Assembly (NCBI RefSeq): GCF_014203425.1
Contig: NZ_JACHJC010000001.1
Coordinates: forward strand, 6,403,501 to 6,467,500
Length of the DNA: 64,000 bases
Origin: Micromonospora echinospora
Lineage (GTDB): Bacteria; Actinomycetota; Actinomycetes; Mycobacteriales; Micromonosporaceae
Direction: 5' to 3'
How positions within the stretch are numbered: position 1 is the stretch's first letter; the number at the start of each line of letters is the position of its first letter. The notes beneath the pieces were generated by a model. That model was given only the letters and a program-made list of their open reading frames with translations, did no database searches and was not told the DNA's origin. The position numbers and the translations under genes are program-made. Below are positions 4,043 through 45,096 of the stretch, piece by piece.

Positions 4043-4540
4043 TTCATGTCCCGCCACCCCTCGGGCCTCGGGCCCTGCCCCGCGCCCCCCGGGCCGGCCC
4101 GGCCCCCGCGATCTTGCAGTTGCGGCCCTCGGTGCGGGCGATCCACCCCTTTCGTCGGGGCGCGAAGTGCAAGATCGCCGAGTGTGGACGGCGACTGTGG
4201 ATCCCTGAGGCTCGGGAGCGGCTCGCACTGCCGGACGGGGCGTTGGCCGTCGTGGTGCGAAGTACGGGTCGGTGGCGCCGTCGGGCGAGGTCGAGCGGTC
4301 TCCTCCGGCGCGGCGTCCGGCCATGTCACACGGCGTGGAAGACCGCGTCCGCCGGCCAGGGCGGCCCCTCCATGGCAGCAGTCCCGGACTGCAGGCCACG
4401 TAAGGCGGAGGCGCCTCTGGAGCCTGGAGGGTTTCCTCAGCTCCGCACAGGAACTGCGCTCCCCCGCCGACGACAGCGGCAGCGGCGGGACGCGGTCCGG
4501 AGAGCTGTCTGCTGGGGACGAAAGGCAAAGCGAACGCAGC
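4043..4540. other. About 500-nt gene-free interval
   Basis: Between two terminators of convergent genes. Several open frames cross it, but none has a plausible start, family resemblance or consistent codon bias. The only structure I can point to is the inverted repeat at 4108-4178. Confidence 0.6.
4108..4178. repeat. GATC-type intergenic palindrome, copy 1
   Basis: Arms GCGATCTTGCAGTT (4108-4121) and AAGTGCAAGATCGC (4165-4178) are complementary except for one position, around a 43-nt spacer. The left arm continues GCGGC, giving the pattern GATC-TTG-xxGTT-GCGGC. The same pattern recurs at 26251, 44796, 44888 and 45027. Confidence 0.7.
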
Positions 4541-4577
4541 GAGGCGGGTCCCGTCCGGTGTGGACGGAACCCGCCTC
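4541..4577 (-). terminator. Terminator of the P1 peptidase gene
   Basis: 16-bp stem (4541-4556 with 4562-4577, one mismatch; arms begin GAGGCGGGT and end ACCCGCCTC) around a 5-nt loop, 51 nt beyond the stop of the minus-strand gene at 4629. The minus strand then runs into a T-richer stretch. Confidence 0.75.
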
Positions 4578-4628
4578 GATCGTTCACGCGCGCCTAGCTA
4601 CCGGCGCGACGGTGAGACAGGGTGCGTG

Positions 4629-6083
4629 TCAGGCGAGCCGGTCGGAAGCCTGCCCCCGGCGGCGACCCCGCAGGTGCATGCCCAGCAGGCCGACGCCCAG
4701 GATGCCCGCGGCCAGCAGGCCCGTGGTCACGCCGGTCGGGACGCTGGGGCCACCGGCGTTACCGGAGGCGAGAACCATGCCGTTCTGCGAGTCCTGCTGA
4801 GTGGTGTTGCCCGCCGGAGCAGCCTTCGGCTTCGGCTTGGGCTTGCCGTTGTCGGCAGCGGGCGGCGCGGGGACCGGGGTCTGCGCCAGCGCCTGCGACG
4901 CCTGGGCGAAGGTCTCCGGGGTCACGGTCGGGGCGTTGCCCTGGGTACGCCACTGCTTCAGCTGCTTCATGCCCTTGCAGGCCGAGGGGTAGCGGTCGCA
5001 GTAGCTGGTGGTGTTGCCGATGCTCTCGGACGAGAGGACGGCCTTGGCGATGGCACGGGCCAGCGTGCTGGCGCCGGCGTTGAAGATGGCGTTCAGCTGA
5101 CGGGTGTCGGCCGGGTCGTTGATCTGCAGCGCCTCGCCCTTGCCGGTGGAGACGGCGAAGACGGTGTCACCGTCGCCCAGGGTGTGGATCGGGCTGATCG
5201 CGCGGGCCATGCCGTCGTGCGCGTTGCCGGACATCCGCTGGGCGGCGGCCTTCTCCAGCGGCGCGTTGGTGGCGACCACGGCGATAGTGGTGTTCGCCGG
5301 CTGCTGGGCGGCGGTGCTCGGCGGGTTGCACTCCTTCTTCTTGGGAGCCTTGTAGCCGGCGAACTCGTTGCCGATGCCGAACTTGACGCCGTACAGGGTG
5401 CAGTCGGCCGGGTCGACCGGGGAGCCGGCCGGGTTGACGATCACCATGGCGCCGACGTAGATGCCGTCACCGAGGTGAACGCTGGCGGTGCCGACGCCGC
5501 CGCGCAGGCCGCCGCCGCGGGCGCCGGTGCCGCCGCCGACGCCGCCCTGACGAACCGGACCGTCCGAAGTGGCCTGCGCCGCGAGGTAACCCCACTCGGC
5601 GGAGGTACGCGCCTTCGGGTCACCGCCGCGGCCGAGGTCGAAGATGTCCGCAGCCGGGACGATCGGGGCCACGCCGCCGGCGCCGACGCGTACGCCCTCG
5701 CCACGGTCCTCGAGCCAGCGGATGATGCCGTTGGTGGCGGACAGCCCGTACATGCTGCTGCCGCCGAGCTGGATCGCGTTGACGCCCGGGTTCGAGTTGA
5801 GCGGGCTGAGGAGGTCGGTCTCCTTGGTGGCGGGGGCACCGCCACGCTGGTCCACGCTGGCCACCGACATCTGCGGCATGTACACGACCGAGGTGCCGGT
5901 CAGGTACGGGGCGATGTCGGACTGAACCTGGCCGACCTGGATTCCGGGAACGTCGGTGATGGCGTTGTGGGCACCCGGCGCGCCGGCGGCGGGATTGGCC
6001 GACGCGGGCGAGCCGCTGACGAGCACGAGTCCCGGACAGACCAGGGCAGCCGCGGCGAGCGCGGCAAATCTGGACGACTTCAT
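4629..6083 (-). CDS. Secreted, membrane-anchored P1/S58-family (DmpA/NylC-like) peptidase
   Basis: 484 residues. The start at 6083 (MKSSRFAALAAAALV) is chosen because it opens a signal peptide (cleavage near SPASA-NP) and has GGGAG about 9 nt upstream. Family features are DVPGIQVGQV, GGAPATKETDLL, AIQLGGSSMYGLSATNGI, and NTTIAVVATNAPL followed by HDGMARAISPIHTLGDGDTV. In S58 N-terminal-nucleophile hydrolases autocleavage before the Ser/Thr creates the active residue; here N-T-T is the likely site, as in NylC-type enzymes. After a Pro/Lys-rich linker (PKPKPKAAP) there is a C-terminal membrane helix (GLLAAGILGVGLLGM) and an Arg-rich tail, which is unusual because DmpA itself is soluble. The substrate is unknown. 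Confidence 0.85.
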   Translation of the reverse strand: MKSSRFAALAAAALVCPGLVLVSGSPASANPAAGAPGAHNAITDVPGIQVGQVQSDIAPYLTGTSVVYMPQMSVASVDQRGGAPATKETDLLSPLNSNPGVNAIQLGGSSMYGLSATNGIIRWLEDRGEGVRVGAGGVAPIVPAADIFDLGRGGDPKARTSAEWGYLAAQATSDGPVRQGGVGGGTGARGGGLRGGVGTASVHLGDGIYVGAMVIVNPAGSPVDPADCTLYGVKFGIGNEFAGYKAPKKKECNPPSTAAQQPANTTIAVVATNAPLEKAAAQRMSGNAHDGMARAISPIHTLGDGDTVFAVSTGKGEALQINDPADTRQLNAIFNAGASTLARAIAKAVLSSESIGNTTSYCDRYPSACKGMKQLKQWRTQGNAPTVTPETFAQASQALAQTPVPAPPAADNGKPKPKPKAAPAGNTTQQDSQNGMVLASGNAGGPSVPTGVTTGLLAAGILGVGLLGMHLRGRRRGQASDRLA

Positions 6084-6274
6084 GGAGCTTCTCCCATGCG
6101 AAGCACTGCGACTCCCGCCCAGCTTGGGACGGTCGCGGCATTGGTCAACTGCGGAGTCCCCCGTGTACACCTCGGTGATGTGGGGGAGGCTACTGGTCAG
6201 ACCAGTTGAAGGGAAGGGCTGCTCAGTTAATGGCCGATCTTGCATCATCCGAGGTCAGGCCACATCGGGCTGTT

Positions 6275-7027
6275 TCAGAGCAATACGTCCACCATCGAGC
6301 GCCGGGGCTCCGGCACGTACTCGGCGTAGTAGCGGTGCAGCTCCTCGCGGGTCAGCCGGGCGACCTCGTCGGCCTCGCCGGCCCGCATCGCGTCGAGGAC
6401 GCGACGGTGATGGGCGAGCGTGCGCTCCATCAGCGCCTCGCGGTCCGGAGCCTCGGCGAGCTTCGTGGAGATGAGGTCCAGCACCATGCTGCGGACCGCG
6501 TCGAGGCAGAGCACGAGCAGCTCGTTGCCCGACAGGCGGGCGACGTGCTCGTGGAAGCGGACGTCCGCGGCGCTGAAGGCCTCGTAACCGTCGGCCATGG
6601 CGTCCCTCATCCCGGCCAGCGCCTGCTCCAGCTCGTCCAGCTCGGGCGGGGACGCCAGCCGGGCCGCGACGGAACCGGCAGCCGACTCGATGATCATCCG
6701 GAACTGGAGCAGCTCCGCCACGCCCAGCCGCCGGCTGTCCACGACCCGGGCGAACAGCTTGCGCATCGCCGAGGCGGTCGACGCGATCACCTGGGGCCCG
6801 AGCGGGTCACCCGGGCGGGAACGGATCAGGCCGCTGCTCTCCAGCACGCGCAGCGCCTCGCGCACGGTGGACCTGCTGACGTCGAACTGGGTCGTCAGCT
6901 CGCGCTCGCTGGGCAGCCGGTCCCCCGGCCGCAGGTCCCCGGCGGCGATCCGCTCCTCGACCTGCCGGACGATCCCCTCGTACGCCCTCACGGTGCGCAC
7001 TGGAGCGAACGAGACACCCTTCGGCAT
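6275..7027 (-). CDS. FadR-type (GntR/FCD) transcriptional regulator
   Basis: 250 residues. The N-terminal winged helix (about residues 12-80) carries GDRLPSERELTTQFDVSRST followed by VREALRVLESSGLI. The C-terminal all-helical FCD domain has FRMIIESAAGSVAARLA, the metal/ligand-binding DVRFHEHVARLSGN segment and LAHHRRVLDAMRAGEADE. FCD regulators usually sense carboxylic acids or acyl-CoAs. The P1 peptidase starts about 190 nt downstream on the same strand and the Asp23 gene lies upstream. No catabolic operon is attached, so the regulon cannot be read from context. Confidence 0.9.
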   Translation of the reverse strand: MPKGVSFAPVRTVRAYEGIVRQVEERIAAGDLRPGDRLPSERELTTQFDVSRSTVREALRVLESSGLIRSRPGDPLGPQVIASTASAMRKLFARVVDSRRLGVAELLQFRMIIESAAGSVAARLASPPELDELEQALAGMRDAMADGYEAFSAADVRFHEHVARLSGNELLVLCLDAVRSMVLDLISTKLAEAPDREALMERTLAHHRRVLDAMRAGEADEVARLTREELHRYYAEYVPEPRRSMVDVLL

Positions 7028-7105
7028 GGCGAACCTCCCGACGCACGGCGGCCTCGCGCCGCTAAGAACAACGGTACGGGTCGTTGGCCCGTCGGGCGGG
7101 GAGGG

Positions 7106-7516
7106 TCAGGCCGCGGGAGGCGGCGAGCCCATCGACACGTCGTCGACCTTGATGTTGATCTCATCGACCCGCAGCCCGTACGCCTCGACGGCGGACACGA
7201 CAGCGGCCCGTACCGCGTCGGTCACCTGCGGAACCGGGTGACCGGCCTCGATCACGAGAACCAGATTGATCACCGCCGCGCCGTTCGTGACATGGGCCGA
7301 GCAGCCCCGGCGGGCGTCGCCGACCTGGTCGAGCCCGACCCGGTCGAGCACCGCGTTGAAGAACCGGGCCACGTCACCGCCCAGCTCGGCCACCCCGGGC
7401 ACCCCGCGGGTGGCGGCCACCGCGATCTTCTCCACCACCTCGTCGGAGACATGCGTGGTCCCGCCCGCCACCGCGTCCGGCGTGATCGACAGTTCCTGGG
7501 TCGCCTCGTCAGCCAT
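7106..7516 (-). CDS. Asp23/Gls24 family envelope-stress protein
   Basis: 136 residues, ATG at 7516. The domain spans about residues 20-125, with HVSDEVVEKIAVAATRGVPG at its start, an INLVLVIEAGHPVPQVTDAV centre and VDEINIKVDDVSM near the end. Alternating hydrophilic helix and amphipathic strand fit the DUF322/Asp23 fold. Homologues in Gram-positives attach to the membrane through partners and are induced by cell-wall or alkaline stress. It lacks a transmembrane helix. It stands between a membrane protein and a regulator on the same strand with gaps of about 90 nt, so it may have its own promoter. Confidence 0.85.
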   Translation of the reverse strand: MADEATQELSITPDAVAGGTTHVSDEVVEKIAVAATRGVPGVAELGGDVARFFNAVLDRVGLDQVGDARRGCSAHVTNGAAVINLVLVIEAGHPVPQVTDAVRAAVVSAVEAYGLRVDEINIKVDDVSMGSPPPAA

Positions 7517-7608
7517 GCTCTCCCACCCGTCGCACCGCCCCGCGCCGACGGCGTGGGGCGGTGCGAGCGTACTGGACGGAGGCGGTCCGCAGTGGACGGC
7601 CGCGCGGT

Positions 7609-9747
7609 TCAGCGCGCCCCGGCCGACTCCAGCTCGCCGACCCCGTCCAGCCCGCCGGAGGCGCCCGGCACCGGGTGCGGCCCGGCGTCACCCGCTGCCT
7701 GCTCGCGGTGCCGCAACCACCGGTCGACGCCGAGGTTGAGCAGCAGGCCGACCGCGGCCCAGACCGCCACGACGGCCAGGTTCCGCCCGACGCCGACCCC
7801 GCCGAAGTAGACGAGCGACCGGGCCGTGTCCACAGCGGCGGGCAGCGGTAGGACGCCCTGGAGCGTCCGGAAGAACTCCGGCACCATGTAGACCGACAGG
7901 CCGCCGCCGGACGCGGGCACCCCGGCCATCATCAGCACCACCATCATCGGGATGATCGCGGCGAGGCCGAAGGTACGGGTGAACACGGCGGTCACCAGCG
8001 ACACGGCGAAGATGGTGAGCGCGCCGAAGCCGATCATCTCCGGGGCGTGCCCGTTGACCGCGCCGATGATCACGTCGAACAGCAGCCACAGCCAGGCGGA
8101 CATGCCGATCGCCCATCCGCCGAGGATCGGCAGGAACTGGCGCAGCCGCCGGATGTGCGGCGCTCCGCCGCGGAGCACTGCCAGCATCAGGAAGCCAGAC
8201 ATGATCCAGGACATGCCGACGTACAGGCTGTTGCTGCCCATCGTGTCGGTCCTGCTGAGCGGCGCCACGTCGGTGACCGCCAGCGGCGTCTGCTGCCCGG
8301 CGGCGACCTGGCGGAACATGGTCTGCACCATCATGTGCTGGCTGGACCCGGCGGCCGACGACGAGTACAGGGTGGCCTCGCCGCCCGGCGTCGCGGGCAG
8401 CACGTACGCGGCGACCAGGTCCTGGGCGAGGATGCGCTCCCTCGCCTCGTCCACCGACGCGGCCACGGAGATGTCGGCGACCCCGCCGAGACCGGCCCGC
8501 AGGCCGGCGGCGACCTGCTCCGCCTGCTCGGGGACCGCGGCGACCACCGCCACCGGGATGTCGTGCGGCTCGGGCTTGTGCATGGAGAAGCTCATCAGGC
8601 CCACCACGGCGACCAGGATGCTCAGCGGGAACGCCGCCACCGTCACGTACCGGAACCGCTTGGACCGCGGCGGGCCGCCGGCGAGCGCGGGCAGCGGCGT
8701 GTCCGGACCATCGACCTGCGGCGCCTGCGGGATCGGCGCCCCGCCGCGCTCCTTGAGCAGGCAGAGCAGCACGGCGGCGACGATCCAGGCGGCGAGCGTC
8801 AGCAGGTGGACGCCGATGCCCCGACCGTCGAAGTAGAGCGCCGACCGCAGCGCCTCACCCGCCGCCGGCAGGGGCAGCACCCCGTGCAGGAACTGGAAGA
8901 AACCAGGCATCGTGTCGACCGGCAGCGCCAGGTTCGACGCGGGCATGCCCAGCACGACGAAGAACAGCATTCCGAGCAGGACCGCCAGCGGCCCCATCAC
9001 CTTGGTGAAGAGCAGCTGGGCGAGACCGACGGCACCGGTCGTGAGCATGCCGACGCCGAGGAACGTGAGGTAGTGGCCGTCGACCGCGCCCACACCGGGT
9101 CCGAGGATCAACCAGATGACCGTGCTGGTCAGCGCCGACCAGCCGGCCGCCAGCGGAACGAACCGCCGCAGGCGCAGCAGGTGCGGGGTGGCCATCAGGA
9201 GCATGCTCAGCGGTACGTAGCCGGCGAGCATCATGCCCATCGCGGCGAACAGCACCGAGATCCCGGCCCGGTCGTCGTCGGGCAGCGGCGCGACGTCCTC
9301 GGTCGTGGACGCCCACTGCTGCTGCATGGCGACCGGGGCGAGGAGCTGTTGCGCGGTGGCAGCGCGGGAGGCGCCGGCCGCCGACGCGGTGATGATCGTC
9401 GCCTGGTCCGACCCCGCGGCCGGGAGCTGCAACGCCCCGCTGATCTCCCGGTCCCGCAGGAGTTCCACGGCGGCGTCCCGGGACGCGACCAGCCGGGCCT
9501 CGACCGGATCGCCGGTAGTGGCGTTGAGCGCGTCCACGACGCCCTGCGCCTGGGCGCCGCTGCCGACCACCGCCACCGGCATCTGCCGGGGGTGCGGCGA
9601 GTGCATCGTCGCCATGTAGGTCGCGAACATCATCGTGACCATGAGGAACGGCATGACGAAGAGGGCGACCGAGCGGACGATCCGCTCCTTGCGGTCGGCG
9701 GCGTTCGGCTCGGCGGTCGCCGGGTCGGTGGTGGGCTGCACAGGCAT
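7609..9747 (-). CDS. Large ABC-2/YhgE-like membrane protein with internal duplication
   Basis: 712 residues built as two homologous halves. Each half has an N-terminal membrane helix, an extracytoplasmic domain beginning with an IPVAVV or MPVAVVGSG strand, then four to five membrane helices and the repeated landmark VLPLPAA. The halves join near residue 340 through a Pro-rich linker (APIPQAPQVDGPDTPLP). The layout resembles permeases of the ABC-2/Pip/DUF3533 type that act without a fixed ATPase. No ATPase gene is adjacent. The gene is divergent from a TetR regulator and the shared 146-nt gap holds a palindromic operator, which suggests an efflux or lipid-export role under TetR repression. That role is inference. 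Confidence 0.75.
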   Translation of the reverse strand: MPVQPTTDPATAEPNAADRKERIVRSVALFVMPFLMVTMMFATYMATMHSPHPRQMPVAVVGSGAQAQGVVDALNATTGDPVEARLVASRDAAVELLRDREISGALQLPAAGSDQATIITASAAGASRAATAQQLLAPVAMQQQWASTTEDVAPLPDDDRAGISVLFAAMGMMLAGYVPLSMLLMATPHLLRLRRFVPLAAGWSALTSTVIWLILGPGVGAVDGHYLTFLGVGMLTTGAVGLAQLLFTKVMGPLAVLLGMLFFVVLGMPASNLALPVDTMPGFFQFLHGVLPLPAAGEALRSALYFDGRGIGVHLLTLAAWIVAAVLLCLLKERGGAPIPQAPQVDGPDTPLPALAGGPPRSKRFRYVTVAAFPLSILVAVVGLMSFSMHKPEPHDIPVAVVAAVPEQAEQVAAGLRAGLGGVADISVAASVDEARERILAQDLVAAYVLPATPGGEATLYSSSAAGSSQHMMVQTMFRQVAAGQQTPLAVTDVAPLSRTDTMGSNSLYVGMSWIMSGFLMLAVLRGGAPHIRRLRQFLPILGGWAIGMSAWLWLLFDVIIGAVNGHAPEMIGFGALTIFAVSLVTAVFTRTFGLAAIIPMMVVLMMAGVPASGGGLSVYMVPEFFRTLQGVLPLPAAVDTARSLVYFGGVGVGRNLAVVAVWAAVGLLLNLGVDRWLRHREQAAGDAGPHPVPGASGGLDGVGELESAGAR

Positions 9748-9784
9748 GCTCCGGAGTGGTTCGCGGCTGCGTCGGCAGCCAGTT

Positions 9785-9802
9785 GTAAGTCAGATGACTT
9801 AC
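9785..9802. promoter_or_regulatory. Palindromic TetR operator
   Basis: GTAAGTCA-GA-TGACTTAC is a perfect inverted repeat (8-bp half-sites, 2-bp centre) and AT-rich against its surroundings. It lies 38 nt upstream of the membrane-protein start (9747) and 92 nt upstream of the tetR start (9894), placed to control both. Confidence 0.7.
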
Positions 9803-9893
9803 GTAGTGTAGGTGACGCCGGCGCCGGACCACGAAACGACTAGGTTTGGCCTGCGCCACAGTCGGCGCGCGAGCCACGAGGAGAGGTGCGTTC

Positions 9894-10538
9894 ATGGCAC
9901 GGTCGGAGGCAGCCCGCGCCGCCCTGCTCGACGCCGCGGAACGCCTGTTCGCCGAGGAGGGGATCGCTCAGATCTCCGACCGCCGGGTGGCCGAGGTGGC
10001 GGGCAACACCAACCACTCCGCGGTGCGCTACTACTTCGGCGGGCGGGAGGGTCTACTGCGGGCACTGGTCGCCCGGCACGTGGACGCCCTCGCCGAACCC
10101 CGCCGGGCGATGCCCGAGCAGCCCGACTCCGTCCTCGGCGACGTACGCAGTCTCGTGCAGCCGTCCATGGCTGTGCTCGCGAGCCTGCCCAGGCCGAGCT
10201 GGCGGGCCCGCTTCCTCGCCCAGGCCCTGCACGACCCGACGCTGCGGGTGCTGATGCGCGAGGCGTTCGAGTCGGCCTTCGTCGACCTGCCGGCCCGCGC
10301 GTCGCTGGCGTCGCGCCTGGCGCACCTCGACCGTGGGGTGGTGGCCGGCCGGTCGGCGCTGATCGCCCGCATCGTCATGACCGCCACCGCCGAGGTCGAG
10401 GCCCGGGCCGAGCAGGAGGGGCAGGACCCGCACTGGCTGGACGTCGGCGACTTCCTCGCCGACGCCATCGCCGGCATGCTGGCGGCTCCGGTCAGCCGAC
10501 CCGGAGCCGCCAATCCGCTCACCGACGCGGAGCTCTGA
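9894..10538 (+). CDS. TetR-family repressor, divergent from membrane-protein gene
   Basis: 214 residues. The ATG at 9894 is chosen over an in-frame one at 9846 because GAGGAGAGG lies 8 nt upstream and the HTH begins directly after it. The DNA-binding domain (residues 1-55) contains ARAALLDAAERLFAEEG, then RRVAEVAGNTNHSAVRYYFG. The ligand domain follows, with LAQALHDPTLRVLMREAF and a terminal segment rich in Ala. It probably represses the neighbouring duplicated membrane protein, and itself, through the 18-bp palindrome at 9785. The inducing ligand is not predictable from sequence. Confidence 0.88.
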   Translation: MARSEAARAALLDAAERLFAEEGIAQISDRRVAEVAGNTNHSAVRYYFGGREGLLRALVARHVDALAEPRRAMPEQPDSVLGDVRSLVQPSMAVLASLPRPSWRARFLAQALHDPTLRVLMREAFESAFVDLPARASLASRLAHLDRGVVAGRSALIARIVMTATAEVEARAEQEGQDPHWLDVGDFLADAIAGMLAAPVSRPGAANPLTDAEL

Positions 10539-10577
10539 GCCCGGAGGCGGACCGGCGGAACCCGGCGGCCCGAGCCT

Positions 10578-11579
10578 TCAGGAGCCGAGCTGCGCGAGCA
10601 GGTCCTCGGCTGCGGCGTACGGGTCCAGGGCACCCTCGGCCACCTTGGCGGCGAGCGTCGGGAGCTGCGTACCGTCGCGCAGCGAGCCGATCCGGGCGCG
10701 CAGCACGCCCAGCGCGATCGCCTCGATCTCGGCGGCGGCCCGCGTCTCCCGGCGGCGGCGCAGTTCGCCGTGGCGCTCCAGCCAGTCGCGGTGCTTGTCG
10801 ATCGCGGCGGCGATGTCGTCGATGCCCTCGGCGCGGGCGGCGATCGACCGCACCACCTGCGGACGCCACTCCCCCGGCCCGCGCTCGCCGAGCGCGATCA
10901 TGCCCTGGATGTCGCGGACCGTGGCGTCGGCGCCGTCCCGGTCGGCCTTGTTGACCACGAAGACATCGGCGATCTCCAGGATGCCGGCCTTGACGGCCTG
11001 GATCGCGTCACCCATGCCCGGCGCGAGCAGCACCAGCGTGGTGTCGGCGAGCGAGGCCACCTCCACCTCGGCCTGCCCGACGCCGACGGTCTCGACGAGC
11101 ACCACGTCGCAGCCCGCGCCCTCCAGCACCCGCACCGCCTGCGGCGTGGCGGCGGAGAGCCCGCCCAGGTGGCCCCGGCTGGACATCGAGCGGATGTAGA
11201 CGCCCGGGTCCGTCGCGTGGTCCTGCATCCGGACCCGGTCGCCGAGGATGGCCCCGCCGGTGAACGGGCTGGACGGGTCGATCGCCAGCACGCCGACCCG
11301 GTGACCGCGCGCCCGCAGCGCCCGGACCAGCTCGTTGGTGGTGGTCGACTTGCCCACCCCGGGCGAGCCGGTCAGGCCGACGACCTGGGCCTGCCCGCCG
11401 TACGGCGCGAGCGCCGCCGCGACCTGCGGCAACACCTCGTCGCCGGACTCGACCAGGGTGATCAGCCGGGCCACCGCGCGGGGGTCACCCGCGCGGGCCC
11501 GCTCGACAAGCATGGGTACGTCCCGGCTGCGGCGCACCGGGCCGGTGGCCGCCGCCGGGGCGTTCTGTACGTCACTCAC
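10578..11579 (-). CDS. meaB: MeaB-type GTPase chaperone of the B12-dependent acyl-CoA mutases
   Basis: 333 residues. The G1/P-loop is GSPGVGKS at 71-78, followed by the MeaB/ArgK-typical LAIDPSSPFTGGAILGDRVR, the G3-region VETVGVGQAEVEVA segment and the G4 motif VVNKAD. G3E-family GTPases of this type gate adenosylcobalamin loading and protect or reactivate methylmalonyl-CoA mutase; ethylmalonyl-CoA mutase is also a client in organisms with that pathway. The gene follows the thiolase gene with a 12-nt gap, so the two form one minus-strand transcript. Ecm (30343) and the adenosyltransferase (43065) in this window are logical partners. Confidence 0.93.
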   Translation of the reverse strand: MSDVQNAPAAATGPVRRSRDVPMLVERARAGDPRAVARLITLVESGDEVLPQVAAALAPYGGQAQVVGLTGSPGVGKSTTTNELVRALRARGHRVGVLAIDPSSPFTGGAILGDRVRMQDHATDPGVYIRSMSSRGHLGGLSAATPQAVRVLEGAGCDVVLVETVGVGQAEVEVASLADTTLVLLAPGMGDAIQAVKAGILEIADVFVVNKADRDGADATVRDIQGMIALGERGPGEWRPQVVRSIAARAEGIDDIAAAIDKHRDWLERHGELRRRRETRAAAEIEAIALGVLRARIGSLRDGTQLPTLAAKVAEGALDPYAAAEDLLAQLGS

Positions 11580-11591
11580 AGGTATCAGCTA

Positions 11592-12785: not shown

Positions 12786-12846
12786 TGCCTGCCTCCGAGG
12801 GGTGCCGACCTGTACGCCTTAACGATTGTTCGGTCAGACTAGCGTC

Positions 12847-13311: not shown

Positions 13312-13317
13312 GGCGCA

Positions 13318-13365
13318 AGGAAGGGCCCCTTCTTAACAGACGTCTGTTAAGAAGGGGCCCTTCCT
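13318..13365. repeat. 48-bp perfect palindrome (GTTAAGAAGGGGCCC element, copy 1)
   Basis: Two 24-nt arms, perfectly complementary with no spacer, centred on GAC|GTC at 13341/13342. Each arm contains GTTAAGAAGGGGCCCTTCC or its complement. The same 19-mer occurs at 30322-30340. It begins 7 nt after the epimerase stop and could act as a terminator in RNA, but the exact symmetry and the second locus argue for a repeat family. Confidence 0.85.
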
Positions 13366-13370
13366 AACCA

Positions 13371-13410: not shown

Positions 13411-13467
13411 GGACACCTCCACTCATCGGCCGATGCAGTTTTTCACAGAGGGCTTCCCGCTTTAGCT

Positions 13468-14967: not shown

Positions 14968-15030
14968 CCGTACGGTCGTCCCGGATTGCCTTTCCGGCCG
15001 ACCCGGGCGCCATTCGACCGGCGTACGCAC

Positions 15031-18770: not shown

Positions 18771-18907
18771 CGCCACCTCGGGGAAGTGGTGCCATCCGCC
18801 GACCCGGACCACGCCACTTCCCCGAACTGGCGGGCCCAGCGCCACGTCGGCGAAGTGGCGGCATCCCACCCACCCGGACCACACCACCTCCCCGAACTGG
18901 CGGGCGA
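18771..18907. repeat. Tandem pair of 69-nt palindromic units (CCACTTCCCCGAA element)
   Basis: Two head-to-tail units (18771-18839 and 18840-18907). Each has a left arm CGCCAC-TCGGSGAAGTGG and a right arm CCACYTCCCCGAACTGGCG, complementary at about 17 of 19 positions in the first unit. They fill the gap between the coiled-coil gene and the permease gene. Related half-units (GCCACTTCGGSGAGGT) recur twice near 45205-45270. Confidence 0.75.
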
Positions 18908-26250: not shown

Positions 26251-26311
26251 GTCGATCATGACGTTGGCGGCGACAAATCAGACGCACAACGCCGCCAACG
26301 TCATGATCGAC
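26251..26311. repeat. GATC-type intergenic palindrome, copy 2
   Basis: Perfect 22-bp inverted repeat (26251-26272 with 26290-26311) around a 17-nt loop. The arm starts GTCGATCATGACGTTGGCGG. A diverged copy lies at 44888-44952. It is located in the gap between the FHA gene and the hydrolase gene, both on the minus strand. Confidence 0.85.
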
Positions 26312-35799: not shown

Positions 35800-35820
35800 G
35801 ACCGGAGACTACACCGGGTG

Positions 35821-35835
35821 TATACCTCGCGTATA
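35821..35835. promoter_or_regulatory. Likely PadR operator in a divergent intergenic region
   Basis: TATACCTCGCGTATA: inverted half-sites TATAC / GTATA with a 5-nt spacer, AT-rich in a GC-rich context. It lies between padR (start 35799) and the second ABC operon (start 35886), so it could control both directions. Confidence 0.6.
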
Positions 35836-35885
35836 TAGCTGACCCGGCAGTGGAACGGGCGACCGCACGACGCACACTTGACGGC

Positions 35886-37576: not shown

Positions 37577-37594
37577 CCACCGGGCCGCCCTCGC

Positions 37595-38548
37595 TCATCC
37601 GCCGTCGACCAGCGCCGCACCCAGCGGCGTACGCCAGTAGAGCACCTCGCGCCCGGACCGCCGCTTGCCGACCGCGCCCGCATCGAGCAGCACGCGCAGG
37701 TGATCGCTGACAGTGCCGAGGGACAGCCCGGTCACCACCACGAGCTGCGACGTGCTCAACGGCGCGTCCAGCCGGGCCAGGATCTCCGCCCGGTTCGCGC
37801 CGATCAGCCGGGCCAGGCCGTCCGGCGCCGGTGAGGTCGGGTCGACCAGGATCCCGCGCGCCGGATAGACCATCCCGAACCGGGTCGGCGCGTCCCAGAC
37901 CACCCAGCCGCGGCGGCAGTGGGCCGGCACGAACACCAGCTGCTCGGCCGCGTGCAGGGACAGCGGCGGCTCCGGGTAGTCGTTCACCTGGAGGCGGCCG
38001 TCGCCCAGCCACCGCACGTTGCGGTTGATGTCGGCGATCGCCCCGGCCAGGCCGCGCGTGCTCAGGGCGGCGGTGCGGGCCACGATGTCCGCCCGCAGCC
38101 GGCGTTCCCGCTCCGGCCACTCCGGCGCGACGGTGTGGGCCCAGATCCAGTCGAGGAGTTCCACGACCTGCCCGGTGAGCCCGTCCGCCAGCAGTTCGGC
38201 CGCCAGCGGGCCCGGCCGGGTCGCACGCAGGTCGGCCCGGATCCGCTCGTCGGACAACCGCTCGACGGCCGCCAGCTCCTCGGCGAACGTCGGGTCCCCC
38301 GAGGCGGGCGCGATGGTGAGGAAGTCCGCGACCCACCTGAGGTTGAACGACGCCGCCACCAGCGCCCGGACCACCGGCCGGGCGGCCAGCATCCGCCGGA
38401 ACGCGTCCACGTGCGGCCGTCGCCAGGCCTGCTCCCAGGGGACGTGCGGATGGCGCAGCGCCTTCAGCGCGCCGACGGTCTCGGCCATCGGCGACACCGT
38501 AAAACGACTCCGCGCGACCAGATCGGACGGCACCTGCCAGACGCCCAC
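37595..38548 (-). CDS. DUF5937/ArsR-like winged-helix regulator
   Basis: 317 residues. A large N-terminal domain of unknown fold (DUF5937-like, with WEQAWRRPHVDAFRRMLAAR and FNLRWVADFLTIAP) precedes a C-terminal ArsR helix-turn-helix: RAEILARLDAPLSTSQLVVV, then TGLSLGTVSDHLRVLLDAGA with VGKRRSGREVLYWRT. There are no metal-binding Cys clusters, so metal sensing is unlikely. It is divergent from an MFS gene across only 58 nt, which suggests it controls that transporter. Confidence 0.82.
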   Translation of the reverse strand: MGVWQVPSDLVARSRFTVSPMAETVGALKALRHPHVPWEQAWRRPHVDAFRRMLAARPVVRALVAASFNLRWVADFLTIAPASGDPTFAEELAAVERLSDERIRADLRATRPGPLAAELLADGLTGQVVELLDWIWAHTVAPEWPERERRLRADIVARTAALSTRGLAGAIADINRNVRWLGDGRLQVNDYPEPPLSLHAAEQLVFVPAHCRRGWVVWDAPTRFGMVYPARGILVDPTSPAPDGLARLIGANRAEILARLDAPLSTSQLVVVTGLSLGTVSDHLRVLLDAGAVGKRRSGREVLYWRTPLGAALVDGG

Positions 38549-38606
38549 GTTTCGCCTCCAGACGTAACTCTAGGGATTCCACCGACGGCCCACCGACCAT
38601 GCCCGG

Positions 38607-39824
38607 GTGAGAACGTACGCAGAACTGTTCGCGGTCCGGGAGTTCCGCAACCTGTTCCTGGCGAACTGCGCCGGGATCGCCGCACACACCACGTCGGCGC
38701 TCGCCCTGGGCGCCCTGACCTACGCGTCGACCGGCTCGGCGCTGCTCACCGCGCTGAGCATGTTCGGGGCGCCGCTGGCCGGTGTCCTCGGCAGCCTGAC
38801 GCTGCTGTCCGCCGCGGACAGCGTGCCGCCGCGCCGGGCGATGACGTTCGCCGCCCTGCTCGCCACCGCCGCGGCGGCGCTCCAGGCGATACCCGGACTG
38901 CCGCTGTGGGCCCGCTTCGCGATCATCTTCGTCAACGCGTACGTGGGCTCCGTCGCCGGCGGCGCCAAATGGGCGCTGCTCACCGACATCGTGCCGGTGA
39001 ACGCCTACGTGCTGGCCCGGGCCACCATGAACACGAGCGTCGGCGTCATGCAGATCGCCGGGTTCGGGCTGGCCGGCGTCCTGCTCGTCTGGCTGAGCCC
39101 GTACCAGGTGTTCCTGCTCGCCCTGACCCTGCGGGCGGTGTCCGCCGCGGTGGGATGGTTCGGGCTCACCGAGCGTCCGGCCCGGACCACCGAGCGGGTC
39201 ACTGTCGCGCGCACCCTGCACGTGAACCGGATGCTCTGGGCCCACCCCGGCCGCCGGTCGCTCCTGCTCAACCTCTGGGTACCGGGCGGCCTGATCGTCG
39301 GCTGCGAGGCGCTGTTCGTCCCGTACGCGGCCGGCCGCGCCGGCTTCCTGCTCGCCGCTGCCGCCCTCGGCATGCTGGCCGGGGACGTGGTGGTCGGGCG
39401 GTTCCTGACCCCGGCCCACCGCGAGCGGTGGCTCCACCCGCTGCGGGTGCTGCTCCCCCTGCCGTACCTGCTCATCCTGCTGTCGCCGCCGCTGCCGGTG
39501 GCCATGGCCGTCGCGCTCGTCGCCTCGGTCGGCTACGCCTCCACCCTGCCCATGCAGGAACGGCTGATCGCCCACTCACCGCCCGAGAGCCGGGGCCAGG
39601 TGCTCGGCCTGCACGGCAACGGCATGCTCGCCGGGCAGGCGGTGTGCGCCGCGCTCGCCGGGGCGCTCGCCGACCTGACCACCCCGGCGCACGCCGTCGC
39701 GTTGCTCGCCGCCGTGGCCCTGGCCGCCACCGTCGCGCTCACCCCCGGACTGCGGCGCACCACCCCGGGTCGTTACGGCGGCGAGCCGAGCAGCAGACCC
39801 GCGACGGCCAGCCCGGCCCCGTGA
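38607..39824 (+). CDS. MFS transporter
   Basis: 405 residues, GTG start. Around 11-12 hydrophobic segments can be counted, starting with FLANCAGIAAHTTSALALGA and ending VALLAAVALAATVALTPGL. The layout is that of MFS drug-efflux-type proteins with two six-helix bundles and a short central loop (GLTERPARTTERVTVARTL). No substrate motif is visible. Pairing with the divergent DUF5937/ArsR regulator suggests inducible efflux. Confidence 0.85.
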   Translation: MRTYAELFAVREFRNLFLANCAGIAAHTTSALALGALTYASTGSALLTALSMFGAPLAGVLGSLTLLSAADSVPPRRAMTFAALLATAAAALQAIPGLPLWARFAIIFVNAYVGSVAGGAKWALLTDIVPVNAYVLARATMNTSVGVMQIAGFGLAGVLLVWLSPYQVFLLALTLRAVSAAVGWFGLTERPARTTERVTVARTLHVNRMLWAHPGRRSLLLNLWVPGGLIVGCEALFVPYAAGRAGFLLAAAALGMLAGDVVVGRFLTPAHRERWLHPLRVLLPLPYLLILLSPPLPVAMAVALVASVGYASTLPMQERLIAHSPPESRGQVLGLHGNGMLAGQAVCAALAGALADLTTPAHAVALLAAVALAATVALTPGLRRTTPGRYGGEPSSRPATASPAP

Positions 39825-39879
39825 ACCGGAGGCGGCGCGCGGCTCCCCGCGGCGCGTACCGGATGGCACACTCGCCCGC

Positions 39880-40686
39880 ATGGCACACACGCTGACCCGG
39901 CGGGCGGCGCTCACCGCCGCCGGGCTCGCCGGGGTCGGCCTGGTCGGCGGCCTGGCCGCCCGGCAACTGTCCGGCCCCCGACCGGGTCCGGCACCGGCCC
40001 TGCCGGACGCGCCCGCCGGTGACGAGCGGATGATCCGCATCGCCTCCGCCGCCCGCGGCCGCGAGGTGGACTTCTGGACGGCGGTGCCCGACGGGTACGG
40101 CGACGGCCGCGGCCTGCCCGTCTGCCTGGTGCTGCACGGCGCGTCGGCCACCCCGCGCGACTACGGCCGGTTCGGGCTGGCCCGCTTCCTCACCGACGCG
40201 GTACGCCGGGGCGCCCCACCGTTCGCGCTCGCCGGCGCCACCGGCGGGCGGCTGTCCTGGCGTGCCTCGGGCGACGACGACCCGCAGCGGATGGTGCGCG
40301 AGGAGGTGCCCACCTGGTGCGCCCGGCGCGGCTTCGACAGCAGCCGGCTGGCCGTGTGGGGCTGGTCGATGGGCGGCTTCGGCGCGTTGCTGCTCGCCGA
40401 GGCGTACCCGAAGTGGCTGCGGATGGCGGCGGCCTTCTCCCCCGCGGTGAGCCCCGGCGACGCGGTCTTCACCGGCGTCGGGAAGGTGCGCGGCACCCCG
40501 GTCGGGCTGTGGTGCGGGCGGCAGGACAACTTCCTCAAGGATGTCCGGGCGCTGGCCCGGGCGCTGCCCGAGGAGCCGGTACGCGCCGCCTGGGCCGACG
40601 GGCGGCACAACTTCGGCTACTGGGGCACCGTCATCCCGGACGCGTTCGCGCTGCTCGGCGCCGCGCTCAGCCCGCCCCGGACGTGA
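39880..40686 (+). CDS. Tat-exported esterase of the alpha/beta hydrolase superfamily
   Basis: 268 residues. The twin-arginine signal is LTRRAALTAAGLAGVGLVGG, with the mature region starting after an Ala/Pro-rich stretch. The catalytic fold shows PVCLVLHGASATPRDYG, the nucleophile elbow WGWSMGGFGALLLAEAY and a probable acid/His pair in WCGRQDNFL and WADGRHNFGYW. The resemblance is to the esterase D/antigen-85-like group. The mycolyl-transferase function of antigen 85 should not be assumed, because this organism type lacks mycolates. Confidence 0.85.
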   Translation: MAHTLTRRAALTAAGLAGVGLVGGLAARQLSGPRPGPAPALPDAPAGDERMIRIASAARGREVDFWTAVPDGYGDGRGLPVCLVLHGASATPRDYGRFGLARFLTDAVRRGAPPFALAGATGGRLSWRASGDDDPQRMVREEVPTWCARRGFDSSRLAVWGWSMGGFGALLLAEAYPKWLRMAAAFSPAVSPGDAVFTGVGKVRGTPVGLWCGRQDNFLKDVRALARALPEEPVRAAWADGRHNFGYWGTVIPDAFALLGAALSPPRT

Positions 40687-40687
40687 A

Positions 40688-40716
40688 CCGCCCCCGGCCG
40701 CGCGGGCCGGGGGCGG
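40688..40716. terminator. Bidirectional terminator
   Basis: Perfect 12-bp GC stem CCGCCCCCGGCC / GGCCGGGGGCGG with a 5-nt loop, lying in the 40-nt gap between the convergent esterase and 3-hydroxybutyryl-CoA dehydrogenase genes. Confidence 0.75.
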
Positions 40717-40726
40717 GACGGCCCGG

Positions 40727-41575
40727 TCAGTACGAGTAGAAGCCCTGGCCGGTCTTGCGGCCCAGGTCGCCGGCGGTGGCCATGCGCTGCAGCAGCTCCG
40801 GCGGGAAGAACTTCTCGTCGGCGGTGTCGGTGTAGATGTTGCGGGTCGCGTTCAGGAGCACGTCCACGCCGGTCAGGTCGACGGTGGCCAGCGGGCCCAT
40901 GGCGTGGCCGAAGCCCAGCTTGCAGGCGGTGTCCAGGTCCTCGGCGGAGATCACGCCGGACTCGACGAGCTTGACCGCCTCCATCGCCAGCGCGCAGATC
41001 AGCCGGGTGGTGACGAAACCGGCGATGTCCCGGTTGACCACCACCACCGTCTTGCCGATCTCCTCGGCGAACGACTTGACGGTGTCCATCGTCGCGTCGC
41101 TGGTCTTGTAGCCGCGTACCAGCTCGCAGAGCTTCATCATCGGCACCGGCGAGAAGAAGTGCGTGCCGACGACCGACTCCGGGCGCTCGGTGGCGGTGGC
41201 GATCTGGGTCACCGGGATGGCCGAGGTGTTGGTGGCCAGCACCGCGTCCGCCTTGCAGATCTTGTCCAGCGCGCGGAACACCTCGTGCTTGATCTCGATC
41301 TTCTCGAAGACCGCCTCGACCACGATGTCCGCGTCGGCGGCCGCCTCCAGGTCGGTGGTCGGGGTGATCCGGCCCAGCGTCGCCTCGACGTCGGACGCCT
41401 CGATCTTGCCCTTCTCGGCGAACTTCGTCAGCGACTTCCGGATGCCGTCCACGCCCCGCTTCGTGGCCGCGTCGTCGATGTCGCGCAGCGTCACCTGCCA
41501 GCCCGCCTGCGCCGCCACCTGGGCGATGCCCGAGCCCATCAGCCCGGCACCGACGACCGCGAGTCGACCCGCCAT
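40727..41575 (-). CDS. 3-Hydroxybutyryl-CoA dehydrogenase
   Basis: 282 residues from the ATG at 41575, preceded by GAGGGAGAAG at a good distance; an ATG at 41602 is in frame but lacks such a site. The Rossmann motif is LAVVGAGLMGSGIAQVAAQ, followed by LATNTSAIPVTQIA and the catalytic His-Glu region GTHFFSPVPMMKLCELV, and it ends in LGRKTGQGFYSY. This size and motif set is typical of Hbd/FadB2 enzymes that interconvert acetoacetyl-CoA and 3-hydroxybutyryl-CoA. It would feed crotonyl-CoA to Ccr. A TACTTAACG string 43-52 nt upstream matches part of the ccr upstream motif. Confidence 0.93.
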   Translation of the reverse strand: MAGRLAVVGAGLMGSGIAQVAAQAGWQVTLRDIDDAATKRGVDGIRKSLTKFAEKGKIEASDVEATLGRITPTTDLEAAADADIVVEAVFEKIEIKHEVFRALDKICKADAVLATNTSAIPVTQIATATERPESVVGTHFFSPVPMMKLCELVRGYKTSDATMDTVKSFAEEIGKTVVVVNRDIAGFVTTRLICALAMEAVKLVESGVISAEDLDTACKLGFGHAMGPLATVDLTGVDVLLNATRNIYTDTADEKFFPPELLQRMATAGDLGRKTGQGFYSY

Positions 41576-41644
41576 CTGCTTCTCCCTCGCCGTGTTCTGC
41601 AACGTCTGCCAGAACCCTACTTAACGACGGATAAGCACCGGCTG

Positions 41645-43066
41645 TCAGATGGCCAGGTCCGGCTCCTCCGGCGCGGTGCCGCGTTCCACCTCGACGCCGA
41701 GCGCCCGCAGGTCCGCCACGAAGTCCGGGTAGCCCCGGTCGACGTGGTGCACGTGCGAGACCTCGGTCAGCCCGTCCGCGCAGAGCCCGGCGATGATCAG
41801 GCCGGCGCCGGCCCGGATGTCGGTCGCGCGTACCGGGGCGCCGGACAGCCGCTCCCGGCCGCACACCAGCGCGTGGTGGCCGTCGGTACGGATCTCCGCG
41901 CCCAGCCGCATCATCTCGTTGGCGAACATGAACCGGCCGTCGAAGATGTTCTCGGTGATCAGCGAGCCGCCCTCGCTGACCGCCGCCAGCCCGATCGCCA
42001 TCGGCAGCAGGTCGGTGGCGAAGCCCGGGTACGGCAGCGTCACCACGTCCACCGCCCGGGGGCGGTCGTCCATCCGTACCCGGAAGGCGTCGCCCCGGGT
42101 CTCCACCAGGCCGCCGGCCGCGACAAGCTTGTCCAGCGCGACCTCCAGGTACGCCGGGTCCAGGCCGGTCACCGTCACGTCGCCGCGGGTCATCGCGGCG
42201 GCGAACGCCCAGGTGCCGGCCACGATCCGGTCCCCCACCGTGGCGTGCCGGACCGGCCGCAGCTCGGGTACGCCGACGATGTGCAGCGTCGACGTGCCGG
42301 CCCCTTCGATCCGGGCGCCCATGTTGTTCAGCATCGTGCAGATGTCGACGATCTCCGGCTCCCGGGCCGCGTTGTCGATCGTCGTGGCGCCCCGGGCCAG
42401 CACCGCCGCCATGACCAGGTTCTCGGTCGCGCCCACGCTCGGGAAGTCCAGCAGGATGTCGGCGCCGTGCAGCCCGTCCGGGGCCTCGGCGATGACGAAG
42501 CCGTGCTCACCGGAGATCTCCGCGCCCATCCGGGCCAGCCCGGCGATGTGCATGTCCAGGCCGCGTGAGCCGATCGCGTCGCCGCCCGGGTGGGCCACCC
42601 GGACGTACCCCCGGCGGGCCAACAGCGGGCCGAGCACGCAGATCGACGCGCGCAGCCGCCGCACCAGGTCGTAGTCGGCCTCCGCGCCCGGCCGTTCCGG
42701 CACGTCGATGAGCACCGAGCGGGACCGCTCCACACCGCCGTGGGCCACCATCGGGTCGACCGGGTCGTCCGGGCCGAAACGTACGCCGCAGCCGAGCCGC
42801 CGCAGCACCTCGCCCATGATCGCGATGTCGGTGATCCGGGGCACGTTGGTGATCAGGCTGCGGCCGGGCGCGAGCAACGCGGCGGCCATCAGCTTCAGCG
42901 CGGAGTTCTTCGCACCCACCACGTGCACGGCACCGGCGAGCCGGGCGTCACCGCGTACCCGGATGACGTCGACGTCGTTGAGGGCCGGATCTCCCGCGTC
43001 CCCCGGCCCTACCGGGCTCGGCCGGGCCGGGATGGTCAGGTCGGGTATCCGTAGGCTGTGCGTCAT
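41645..43066 (-). CDS. murA: UDP-GlcNAc 1-carboxyvinyltransferase (MurA) with Asp at the Cys115 position
   Basis: 473 residues. The ATG at 43066 has AGGTGG 8 nt upstream. An N-terminal extension of about 30 residues precedes the EPSP-synthase-like fold, recognised by [55 protein letters not shown] and [20 protein letters not shown]. The catalytic loop reads [15 protein letters not shown]: Asp163 replaces the Cys found at position 115 in E. coli. As known for mycobacterial and chlamydial MurA, Asp keeps the enolpyruvyl transfer but removes the fosfomycin target. The role is the first committed step of peptidoglycan synthesis, unless it is a second MurA-like copy. Confidence 0.9.
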
Positions 43067-43637
43067 GGCCGTCCACCTCACGCGCATCTACACCAAGGCC
43101 GGCGACGCCGGCATGACCAGGCTGAGCAACAACGAGCAGGTGCCGAAGACCGATCCGCGCATCGCCGCGTACGCGGACGTGGACGAGTGCAACGCCTCGA
43201 TCGGCGTCGCGCTCGCCCTGGGGCAGCTCTCCGACGAGCTGCGAGCTGTGCTGGAATCCGTGCAGAACGACATGTTCGACGTCGGCGCGGACCTGGCGAC
43301 GCCGGTGGAGCCGGACCCGAAGTACCCGCCGCTGCGGGTGACCGAGGAGTACGTCGAGTGCCTCGAGGGCTGGTGCGACGAGTACAACGCGCGCCTGAGC
43401 AAGCTCGACTCCTTCATCCTCCCCGGCGGCACCGCGGGCGCGGCACTGCTGCACGTGGCACGGACGACCGCCCGGCGCGCCGAGCGTGCGGCATGGGCGC
43501 TGGTCGCACACGACCCCGATCGGACCAGTCCCCTGCCGGCCAAGTATCTCAACCGGCTCTCCGATTTGCTCTTTATCCTGTCAAGAACGGCAAATCCGGA
43601 CGGCGACGTGCTATGGGTTCCGGGCGGGAAGCGCTGA
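43065..43637 (+). CDS. PduO-type cob(I)alamin adenosyltransferase
   Basis: 190 residues, ATG at 43065. Motifs are [18 protein letters not shown] (ATP site), [40 protein letters not shown] and [14 protein letters not shown]. The enzyme adenosylates cob(I)alamin to coenzyme B12, which the mutase encoded at 30343 needs, with MeaB (10578) as the loading chaperone. Its start codon overlaps the murA start on the other strand by two bases. It ends in a strong bidirectional terminator. Confidence 0.93.
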
Positions 43638-43722
43638 TCATCCGCATCACGTGGAGGGCTGGGTACCCGGCCTGACGCCGGCCAGTCCTTCGCGGGGCCG
43701 GCTTCTCGCCGAGCTTTTGGAT

Positions 43723-43768
43723 ACGTGAAAGGCCGGCACCCCGTCTTGGGGGTGCCGGCCTTTCACGT
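43723..43768. terminator. Bidirectional terminator
   Basis: Perfect 20-bp stem (43723-43742 with 43749-43768) and a 6-nt loop. The stem centre is GGCCGGCACCCC / GGGGTGCCGGCC, flanked by AAA and TTT runs that serve both directions. It lies between the convergent adenosyltransferase and lysozyme-like genes. Confidence 0.92.
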
Positions 43769-43775
43769 GTGTCTG

Positions 43776-44351
43776 TTACTTGTTCCAGTGTGCGGCGACG
43801 AGGTCGGCGGCCTGCTGCTCCCACTGGGCGTAGTGGTCGGGGTAGGCGGAGACCTGGACGGTCTGGGCGGCCTTGGTCAGTGGCATGTCCTGCCAGCCGT
43901 CGACCTGCTTCAGACCCTTCAGGAACGCGGTGGTGGAGTATTCGGGGTCGGTGATCTGCTCGACCGTGCCCCACCCGCTGGAGGGGCGCTGCTGGAACAG
44001 GCCCTGCGAGTCGTGGTCGTTGCGGTCACCGAGGTGGCCGAGGTTCTCCAGCTTCGACTCCTGCAACGCGGTGGCGATGGAGACGACGGCGGCGCGTTCG
44101 TCCATGCCGGCCTTCTTCGTGGCCGCGATGATCGCCTTCACATTCGCGGTCTGCTCGTCGTTCAACTCGATGCGCGACTGGTTGCCCTGCACACCGTGCG
44201 GGATCAGCTTGTCCGACTGGACGGTGGCCGTGACCGGCTTGGCGTTGGCCGTGGTGTCAGCCGCGTGCGCGGCGACCGGGCCGGCGAACACGCCACCGGT
44301 GAAGGCCAGACCAGCAATACCCAGGACGCTCTTACGCAGAATCGTGTTCAT
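43776..44351 (-). CDS. Secreted lysozyme-like (transglycosylase-fold) protein
   Basis: 191 residues. The signal peptide MNTILRKSVLGIAGLAFTGG is cleaved near AAHA-AD. The mature part has a region of about 40 residues of unknown function, then KAIIAATKKAGMDERAAVVS, ATALQESKLENLGHLGDRND and DSQGLFQQRPSSGWGTVEQI. These match the actinobacterial lysozyme-like family in which the Glu of QES is catalytic. It probably cuts or binds peptidoglycan. The upstream gap is the 1-kb repeat island; I looked for a c-di-AMP riboswitch there and could not support one. Confidence 0.8.
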   Translation of the reverse strand: MNTILRKSVLGIAGLAFTGGVFAGPVAAHAADTTANAKPVTATVQSDKLIPHGVQGNQSRIELNDEQTANVKAIIAATKKAGMDERAAVVSIATALQESKLENLGHLGDRNDHDSQGLFQQRPSSGWGTVEQITDPEYSTTAFLKGLKQVDGWQDMPLTKAAQTVQVSAYPDHYAQWEQQAADLVAAHWNK

Positions 44352-44490
44352 GATGGGGCTCCATTCGGGGGATCGACGCCCACACCGACAGGGGGTTCGG
44401 CGCGGGTGCGAGCACCGTCAGGCGCTCAACAGAAGTCTTCGCGGGGGATCTCGGCTGCTCGCGGGGCGCGGGGGGCCTCGGCGCGGCGCC

Positions 44491-44615
44491 GGAAGGATGT
44501 CCAACGACCGGCGGCCCGGCGTCATTCCCGGGCACCTCGCGCCACCGGCGGGGCGGCGCGGGTTCACGTCGTCGGAACCATGCTCAACGACCGACCGGGC
44601 GAGATGATTCCCGGC
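44491..44615. repeat. Imperfect direct repeat with 83-nt period
   Basis: Two 42-nt units, 44491-44532 and 44574-44615, agree at about 29 of 42 positions. Shared blocks are GGAA, ATG, CAACGACCG and ATTCCCGG. The segment between them is GC-rich. I do not recognise the element. Confidence 0.6.
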
Positions 44616-44795
44616 TTGCGGATGCCGCCTCGCTCGGGGAGCGAGCCGTTGCTCGGTCGTTCACCCGGTTACAACGCCCCGCACCTGCCCACGATTCCGC
44701 CACCAGAGTGCCGCCCACCACCCCCCGAACCGGACACCCACCCCACACACGCCAGATCTTCACCGCGCCCAGCCGGGCACCTCACTCTGCGCTCC

Positions 44796-44854
44796 GTGAT
44801 CAAGGAGATTGCGGCACCTCCAGCGACCACGAGGGCCACAAACTCCTTGATCAC
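44796..44854. repeat. GATC-type intergenic palindrome, copy 3
   Basis: Arms GTGATCAAGGAGATTGCGGC (44796-44815) and GCCACAAACTCCTTGATCAC (44835-44854) are complementary at 17 of 20 positions, including a perfect outer 12 bp, around a 19-nt spacer. Confidence 0.75.
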
Positions 44855-44887
44855 CCCTGAAGAGGCCCTCTCCCGGCACCCACCACA

Positions 44888-44952
44888 GGGTTGATCATGA
44901 GGTTAGCGGCGACAAAACGGACACCGAGCGCCGCCAAGTTCATGATCAACCC
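44888..44952. repeat. GATC-type intergenic palindrome, copy 4
   Basis: The left arm GGGTTGATCATGAGGTTAGC continues GGCG (44888-44911), and the right arm 44929-44952 complements it except at three positions. Loop start GACAAAA and arm sequence match copy 2 at 26251 (GATCATGACGTTGGCGGCG, loop ACAAAT). Confidence 0.8.
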
Positions 44953-45026
44953 GGCCGGGCGAGAGCAGGTCGGGGCGTAGCGGGCATCGGGAGCCACCCG
45001 AGCCTTCCGATCCCGTGGCGACTCAA

Positions 45027-45096
45027 CGATCTTGGAGTTGTGGCACCTCGCGAACCTCGCTAAACCGGCATCGCGGGCGCCACAACTCCAAGATCG
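45027..45096. repeat. GATC-type intergenic palindrome, copy 5
   Basis: Perfect 18-bp arms CGATCTTGGAGTTGTGGC (45027-45044) and GCCACAACTCCAAGATCG (45079-45096) with a 34-nt loop. It is close in sequence to copy 1 at 4108. Confidence 0.85.

Follow-up and report, generated by a model that had tools for sequence, protein, structure and literature searches.

GATC-ended palindromes of Micromonospora echinospora, probable members of a REPIN-like hairpin family of the Micromonosporaceae

What are the five palindromes, bounded by GATC, that stand between the genes of one stretch of the Micromonospora echinospora genome, and to what kind of repeat do they belong? The stretch (the window; 64,000 nucleotides) comprises positions 6,403,501–6,467,500 of the single 7,125,866-base contig of this 7.1 Mb genome. 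A first-pass annotation had reported five inverted repeats sharing a GATC layout, all outside genes, and had read them as a dispersed, repetitive extragenic palindrome (REP)-like family with several subtypes. The five repeats and their layout were verified in the window, none lying within any gene called with our own gene caller, and the dispersed, REP-like character and the subtypes were borne out by genome-wide model searches, the distribution of the family and the typing of its elements. REPINs are REP doublets which form hairpins (PMC3116915). The GATC palindromes are probably a REPIN-like, non-autonomous hairpin family of the Micromonosporaceae which would have spread in trans and many copies of which are now inherited vertically, with flips and losses.

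The first element, of type A (4110–4176; 67 nt from GATC to GATC), lies in the convergent gap between genes 2466–3986 (+) and 4629–6026 (–); it shares the layout, and its arms had to be corrected to imperfect, 14 of 18 positions being paired. The second, of type D (26254–26308; 55 nt), has perfect arms. The other three follow one another in the order C, D, B within a composite stretch (44330–45100): type C with GATCAAGGAG arms (44798–44852; 55 nt), type D (44893–44947; 55 nt) and type B with GATCTTGGAGTTGTGGC arms (45028–45095; 68 nt). Two of the five, at 26254 and 44893, thus belong to one subtype, D, and the remaining three are A, C and B. When palindromes bounded by GATC are required to match at 14 or more of 18 arm bases, the window contains five, compared with a mean of 0.125 and a maximum of 2 in 200 dinucleotide shuffles; a loose one-arm pattern, weaker evidence by itself, gave 10 matches against 4.5 expected. 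Three single half-arms had also been reported. Those near 6236 and 15119 have no visible arm partner and may be due to chance; the one at about 45270 sits among other palindromes.

A family of five proved to be a great underestimate. Covariance models, the use of which the first-pass annotation had proposed, were built from 28 type A/B sequences (R1; own-genome places kept at E 3e-6 or better) and from 14 type D sequences (R2; E 1e-4 or better). R1 detected at least 80 distinct places in the genome (67-nt types) and R2 at least 67 (55-nt types); the two sets do not overlap and together amount to at least 147 places. Three matches were left out of these counts, a partial one to R1 (E 0.385) and two weak ones to R2 (E 0.002). 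Because limited numbers of candidates were scored (the best 150 in the own genome, the best 77 or 84 per family genome and the best 23 per phylum genome), every count made with the models is a minimum, and an absence carries less weight than it might seem to. Twelve R2 places were checked in sequence, of which 11 were D and one C. A preference for one strand relative to replication was dropped as a candidate feature, R1 having been built from plus-strand hits.

From 93 fetched stretches and the window a script collected 101 distinct elements, of which 97 lie in gaps between called genes, two in called genes and two, at locus edges, could not be assigned. These elements were collected around the A/B pattern and model hits, as a result of which C, D and E are undercounted; one row of 108 nt consists of the arms of two neighbours joined. 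Type A (GATCTTGC or GATCTTGT) has 54 copies, of which 51 measure 66–68 nt, the commonest lengths being 67 nt (39 copies) and 68 nt (11 copies); type B (GATCTTGG) has 19, 11 of which are 68 nt long and two of which, at 60 nt, resemble E with an internal repeat. All eight copies of type C (GATCAAG) measure 55–56 nt, ten of the 14 GATCATG copies are of 55 nt (type D) and the other four of 67–68 nt, and the six copies of type E (GATCTTGGT) are of 48 nt. A sixth type, F (GATCNACNCC; 74–75 nt), was seen in larger segments. Each subtype thus has a nearly fixed length (48, 55, 67/68 or 74/75 nt), and the arms begin with GATCWTG in A, B, D and E and with GATCAAG in C. The copies are clustered, 19 of 146 neighbour distances being below 400 bp where 1.3 were expected, and clusters which mix palindrome types within single gaps are present, as in bacterial interspersed mosaic elements (BIMEs). 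Stretches related to the composite at 44330–45100 occur at three other loci of the genome (L037, L110 and L109), with A between D and B. The composite unit is about 650 bases long, contains several palindromes, and is found in related form at these four places.

The spacers, read by eye, show one shared consensus in B, occurring in both orientations, and two lineages in D; this sharing indicates that the copies probably descend from common ancestors.

The distribution of the family in the Micromonosporaceae is patchy. R1 matches at E 0.001 were found in 33 of 61 genomes (from one to at least 77 matches each, both strands counted), and R2 matches in 27 of 61. Differences are wide even inside one genus, genome G031 having 54 R1 matches and G057 none. 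In a sample of 198 genomes of the phylum (E 1e-5, the best 23 candidates per genome) matches were confined to the own genome and G180, that is, one of 197 others. The G180 locus (L335; another family, same class) carries a single palindrome, likewise beginning with GATCATGCAGTT, the right half of which is repeated nearby. A search of 72,556 plasmid records (E 1e-5) with 841 bases of the composite as query gave no match.

Terminal inverted repeats, high copy number, patchy presence and subtypes of fixed length are also what miniature inverted-repeat transposable elements (MITEs), the internally deleted relics of DNA transposons, would display. We consider this explanation improbable. Among 52 exact A/B arms in the genome, 50 are inside model-detected palindromes and only two outside, so that no longer parent transposon is apparent in the own genome for these arms. 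Arm patterns retrieved 59 + 4 loci from viral contigs, and among these 63 the script found just one weak palindrome. The one clean absence of an element, described below, was without target duplication.

The recent history of the copies was followed in collinear segments of the own genome, G079 and G117, with the addition of G045. Aligned identity is 92.5% for own–G079, 92.8% for own–G117 and 94.1% for G079–G117. Between species about 93% identical many copies occupy identical gaps, and many copies are now inherited vertically. The type A element at 4110–4176 has orthologous copies in both G079 and G117; the type D element at 26254–26308 has an orthologue in G117 with its spacer reversed, and the same gap in G045 is without the element. 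Of 72 orthologous pairs, 59 have the spacer in the same orientation, seven have it reversed, and six, which were unclear, were dropped from the orientation count. The clear pairs form 24 groups, with spacer reversal in three of ten D groups and in none of the 14 others. One reversal, at G117 24450, is most likely an inversion in place, confined to the palindrome: the spacer, though reversed, is closer to its orthologues (0.90) than to any other copy (0.81 at best), and the flank on the left keeps its orientation. In yeast, template switching has been described as homogenising arms and inverting spacers (PMC8604942), and template switching between inverted repeats in general as homogenising arms and flipping spacers (PMC8604942, PMC8794818). 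The restriction of reversals to D, the arms of which are among the most perfect and the spacer of which is short, fits template switching, the numbers being small.

Comparison of orthologous gaps for presence and absence, another proposal of the first-pass annotation, yielded a single clean absence. The own genome and G079 have in common a copy of type A (position 301,665 in the joined segment), and in G117 an 81-bp stretch is missing which includes the copy together with 13 bases to its left and one to its right, without target duplication. As G079 is more similar in sequence to G117 than to the own genome, the missing copy is probably a loss by deletion. Differences of type are seen as well: the gap following the DUF2550 gene holds C-D-B in the own genome, D-A-B in G079 and E-D-A in G117, and several gaps vary in like manner.

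The first-pass annotation had further inferred compensatory changes which preserve pairing. This holds between copies: arm pairing is 82.9% in A/B copies as against 78.4% when shuffled (12 double-change pairs versus 9.3) and 88.8% in D copies as against 85.4% (9 versus 3.8). Between close orthologues it is weakly borne out, changes there mostly affecting one arm. With two of the 72 pairs dropped from the counts of arm changes and spacer alignments (spacer identity below 0.55), D showed 59 one-arm and 13 both-arm changes, four of the latter keeping pairing, A 43 and 9 (one keeping pairing), and B 17 and 1 (none); the trend in F, from three pairs, was opposite (3 and 5, of which three keep pairing). 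In type A, 28 of 52 copies fail to pair at arm position 10, 26 at position 13 and 31 at position 15; the other positions mostly match, positions 1–7 because the search pattern imposes them. Since about half of the A copies are mismatched at these three mid-arm positions, it appears to be the sequence of the arms that is mainly held, and not only their pairing.

Conservation of this kind, arm by arm and at a constant spacing, would also be expected of paired protein binding sites (for a nucleoid or 3′-end factor, for example), dispersed and under selection, with the palindromy reflecting a dimer. The spacer consensus shared among B and among D copies points instead to copying from common ancestors, and presence within the family is patchy; we regard binding sites as quite improbable.

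Position relative to genes raises a different possibility. Background gaps were taken from three segments of about 460 kb, the expectation being the gap space available to a 55-mer; as these gaps rest on our own gene caller, gene ends are approximate. Of 97 copies, 35 are in convergent gaps, where 14% would be expected (p 5e-8), 12 in divergent gaps (33% expected; p 4e-6) and 50 in tandem gaps (53% expected). Within the tandem gaps the copies are shifted towards the upstream stop (relative position 0.33 on average; p 2e-5), the commonest distance to a facing stop codon is 20–30 nt, and in divergent gaps the closest start codon is 71 nt from the element. The palindromes might accordingly be bidirectional 3′-end signals, i.e. 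hairpins which end or protect transcripts, selected for at their sites and now immobile; the retention of many copies at orthologous gaps would agree with this. Promoter avoidance alone, however, yields part of the same positional bias, 28 of the 61 family genomes have no R1 match at E 0.001, and the sequence of the arms seems to be conserved beyond what terminators should need. An intrinsic terminator with a T-run was rejected, TTTT being found within 14 nt of none of the 202 element ends. A known structured RNA was likewise rejected, since nothing in the window exceeded the Rfam gathering score (one sub-threshold hit, mir-1805 at 45027–45099, 28.7 bits against a cut-off of 64).

The gap following DUF2550 bears on the same question. 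The window's DUF2550 protein and its homologue in M. chalcea share 97% identity, and 80 loci of relatives, most labelled Micromonospora, were kept. A GATC[AT][AT]G palindrome was found by script in 12 of the 80, eight of these directly after DUF2550; 11 are of the A–E kind and one is GATCTAG. Some contigs end at this place, and inspection by eye shows some four further copies of more degenerate form. At many other DUF2550 loci the same position is taken by unrelated palindromes. That different palindrome families fill this gap in different species speaks for a 3′-end role; the occurrence of A–E palindromes at just 11 of 80 loci speaks against it. All in all a 3′-end role is plausible as the main rival or as a secondary use; as the whole explanation it is possible, if doubtful. 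Just past DUF2550, loci L131, L135, L136, L139, L142, L181, L185 and others carry long palindromes with a conserved centre (GGCTCCGGGCGGTCAGGCTTGATCCC), the outer stems of which differ among species, an anatomy opposite to that of the GATC family. A number of public contigs stop about 1 kb or less past DUF2550, as they would at a repeat.

GTAG REPs and REPINs are associated with REP-associated tyrosine transposases (RAYTs), the mobiliser of CGTC REPs being left open (PMC3733652, PMC3116915). A RAYT, for which the first-pass annotation had suggested a search, was not found in the own genome (Y1 tyrosine transposase, PF01797), and PF01797 was present in three of the 16 family genomes that have 27 or more R1 matches, compared with ten of the remaining 45 (Fisher p 1). 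In view of both results RAYT was rejected as the mobiliser.

The GATC palindromes resemble REPINs in having two inverted conserved arms at a constant distance (71 bp in Pseudomonas fluorescens GI, 67/68 nt here) around a variable spacer, in their extragenic location and in the loss of whole units (PMC3116915). They differ in that the arms begin with a paired GATC, no RAYT was found in the own genome, several subtypes have distinct fixed lengths, and the host is an actinobacterium. With the GTAG/CGTC-tagged REPs they have in common high-copy palindromes and, in the case of CGTC families, the want of a dedicated transposase; in those REPs, however, the tag stays outside the pairing and CGTC stems measure 8–9 bp, whereas here the GATC ends are paired and the arms are of about 18 nt (PMC3733652). 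Of 101 copies, 19 have CGTC next to the left GATC, 21 have it next to the right one and seven on both sides, and GTAG is absent from the 12 commonest four-base flanks, so that the unpaired tag of those REPs is not seen. Like BIMEs, several palindromes may cluster in one gap, but the clusters here are built from whole hairpin elements of several types (PMC2817692). Spacer inversion and arm homogenisation form the mutational signature of template-switch hairpins too, which have been described for RNA genes and yeast coding regions and not for a bacterial repeat family (PMC8794818, PMC8604942). The main text of PMC3733652 contains no mention of actinobacteria, micromonospora or salinispora, and no published description of a Micromonosporaceae GATC hairpin family was found in titles and abstract openings of mainly non-subscription literature. 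The REP/REPIN kind is thus already known; the present family stands apart by the sequence of its arms, by its hosts, by its several fixed lengths and in that no RAYT was detected.

For the favoured reading, a REPIN-like family, the following course may be proposed. Each copy is an inverted pair of conserved arms around a spacer variable in sequence and little so in length, and would have been copied in trans in the past by an arm-recognising enzyme other than RAYT. Many copies are now kept or tolerated just downstream of genes, chiefly between convergent genes. There the DNA strand may fold into a hairpin at which replication slips, and spacers may flip by template switching or be replaced from another copy. 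Elements would be lost through deletion; three reversals and one probable loss were observed. Going further, one might imagine a family-wide actinobacterial REPIN-like system which was spread by a non-Y1 enzyme that recognises GATC arms when they are paired and a measured distance apart, and in which template switching during replication both keeps the hairpins and reverses their spacers at each site, a speculative and rather unlikely proposition.

Several points weigh against this reading. Neither recent transposition nor target duplication was observed, nor any mobilising gene, the search for enzymes having covered Y1_Tnp only. Where copies at separate loci were nearly identical, they were seen, on inspection by eye, to lie within larger duplications. 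Compensatory change among orthologues is weak and recent cases are few. For the reversals at G079 161453 and 317949 a copy elsewhere fits the reversed spacer better than the orthologue does (0.86 versus 0.81), which makes replacement as likely as inversion in two of the three. Orthologue pairs were required to have recognisable arms and a length difference of at most 2, so that arm conservation (8–11% change, compared with 37–42% in flanks) and constancy of length (a gap needed in 19 of 70 spacer alignments, and in 133 of 140 alignments of 40-nt flanks) are biased upward. Copies within one gap are not independent, and with one count per gap (n = 69) 31 are convergent, 32 tandem and 6 divergent.

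With at least 147 places, no RAYT found and patchy presence in the family, the mobiliser can be sought by presence and absence of genes. The reversal of spacers in orthologues of close species bears on how repeat palindromes remain palindromic, and cautions against taking each paired change as a sign of selection on RNA.

The window contains other palindromes. At 13318–13365 there is a perfect 48-nt palindrome of a different kind, with AGGAAGGGCCCCTTCTTAACAGAC arms of 24 nt and no loop. Intergenic palindromes of the CGCCACTTCGG type are found at 18771–18860, with a similar stretch at 45180–45280. Directly after the cobalamin adenosyltransferase gene stands an inverted repeat (43723–43768) whose 20-nt arms pair perfectly around a loop of 6 nt.

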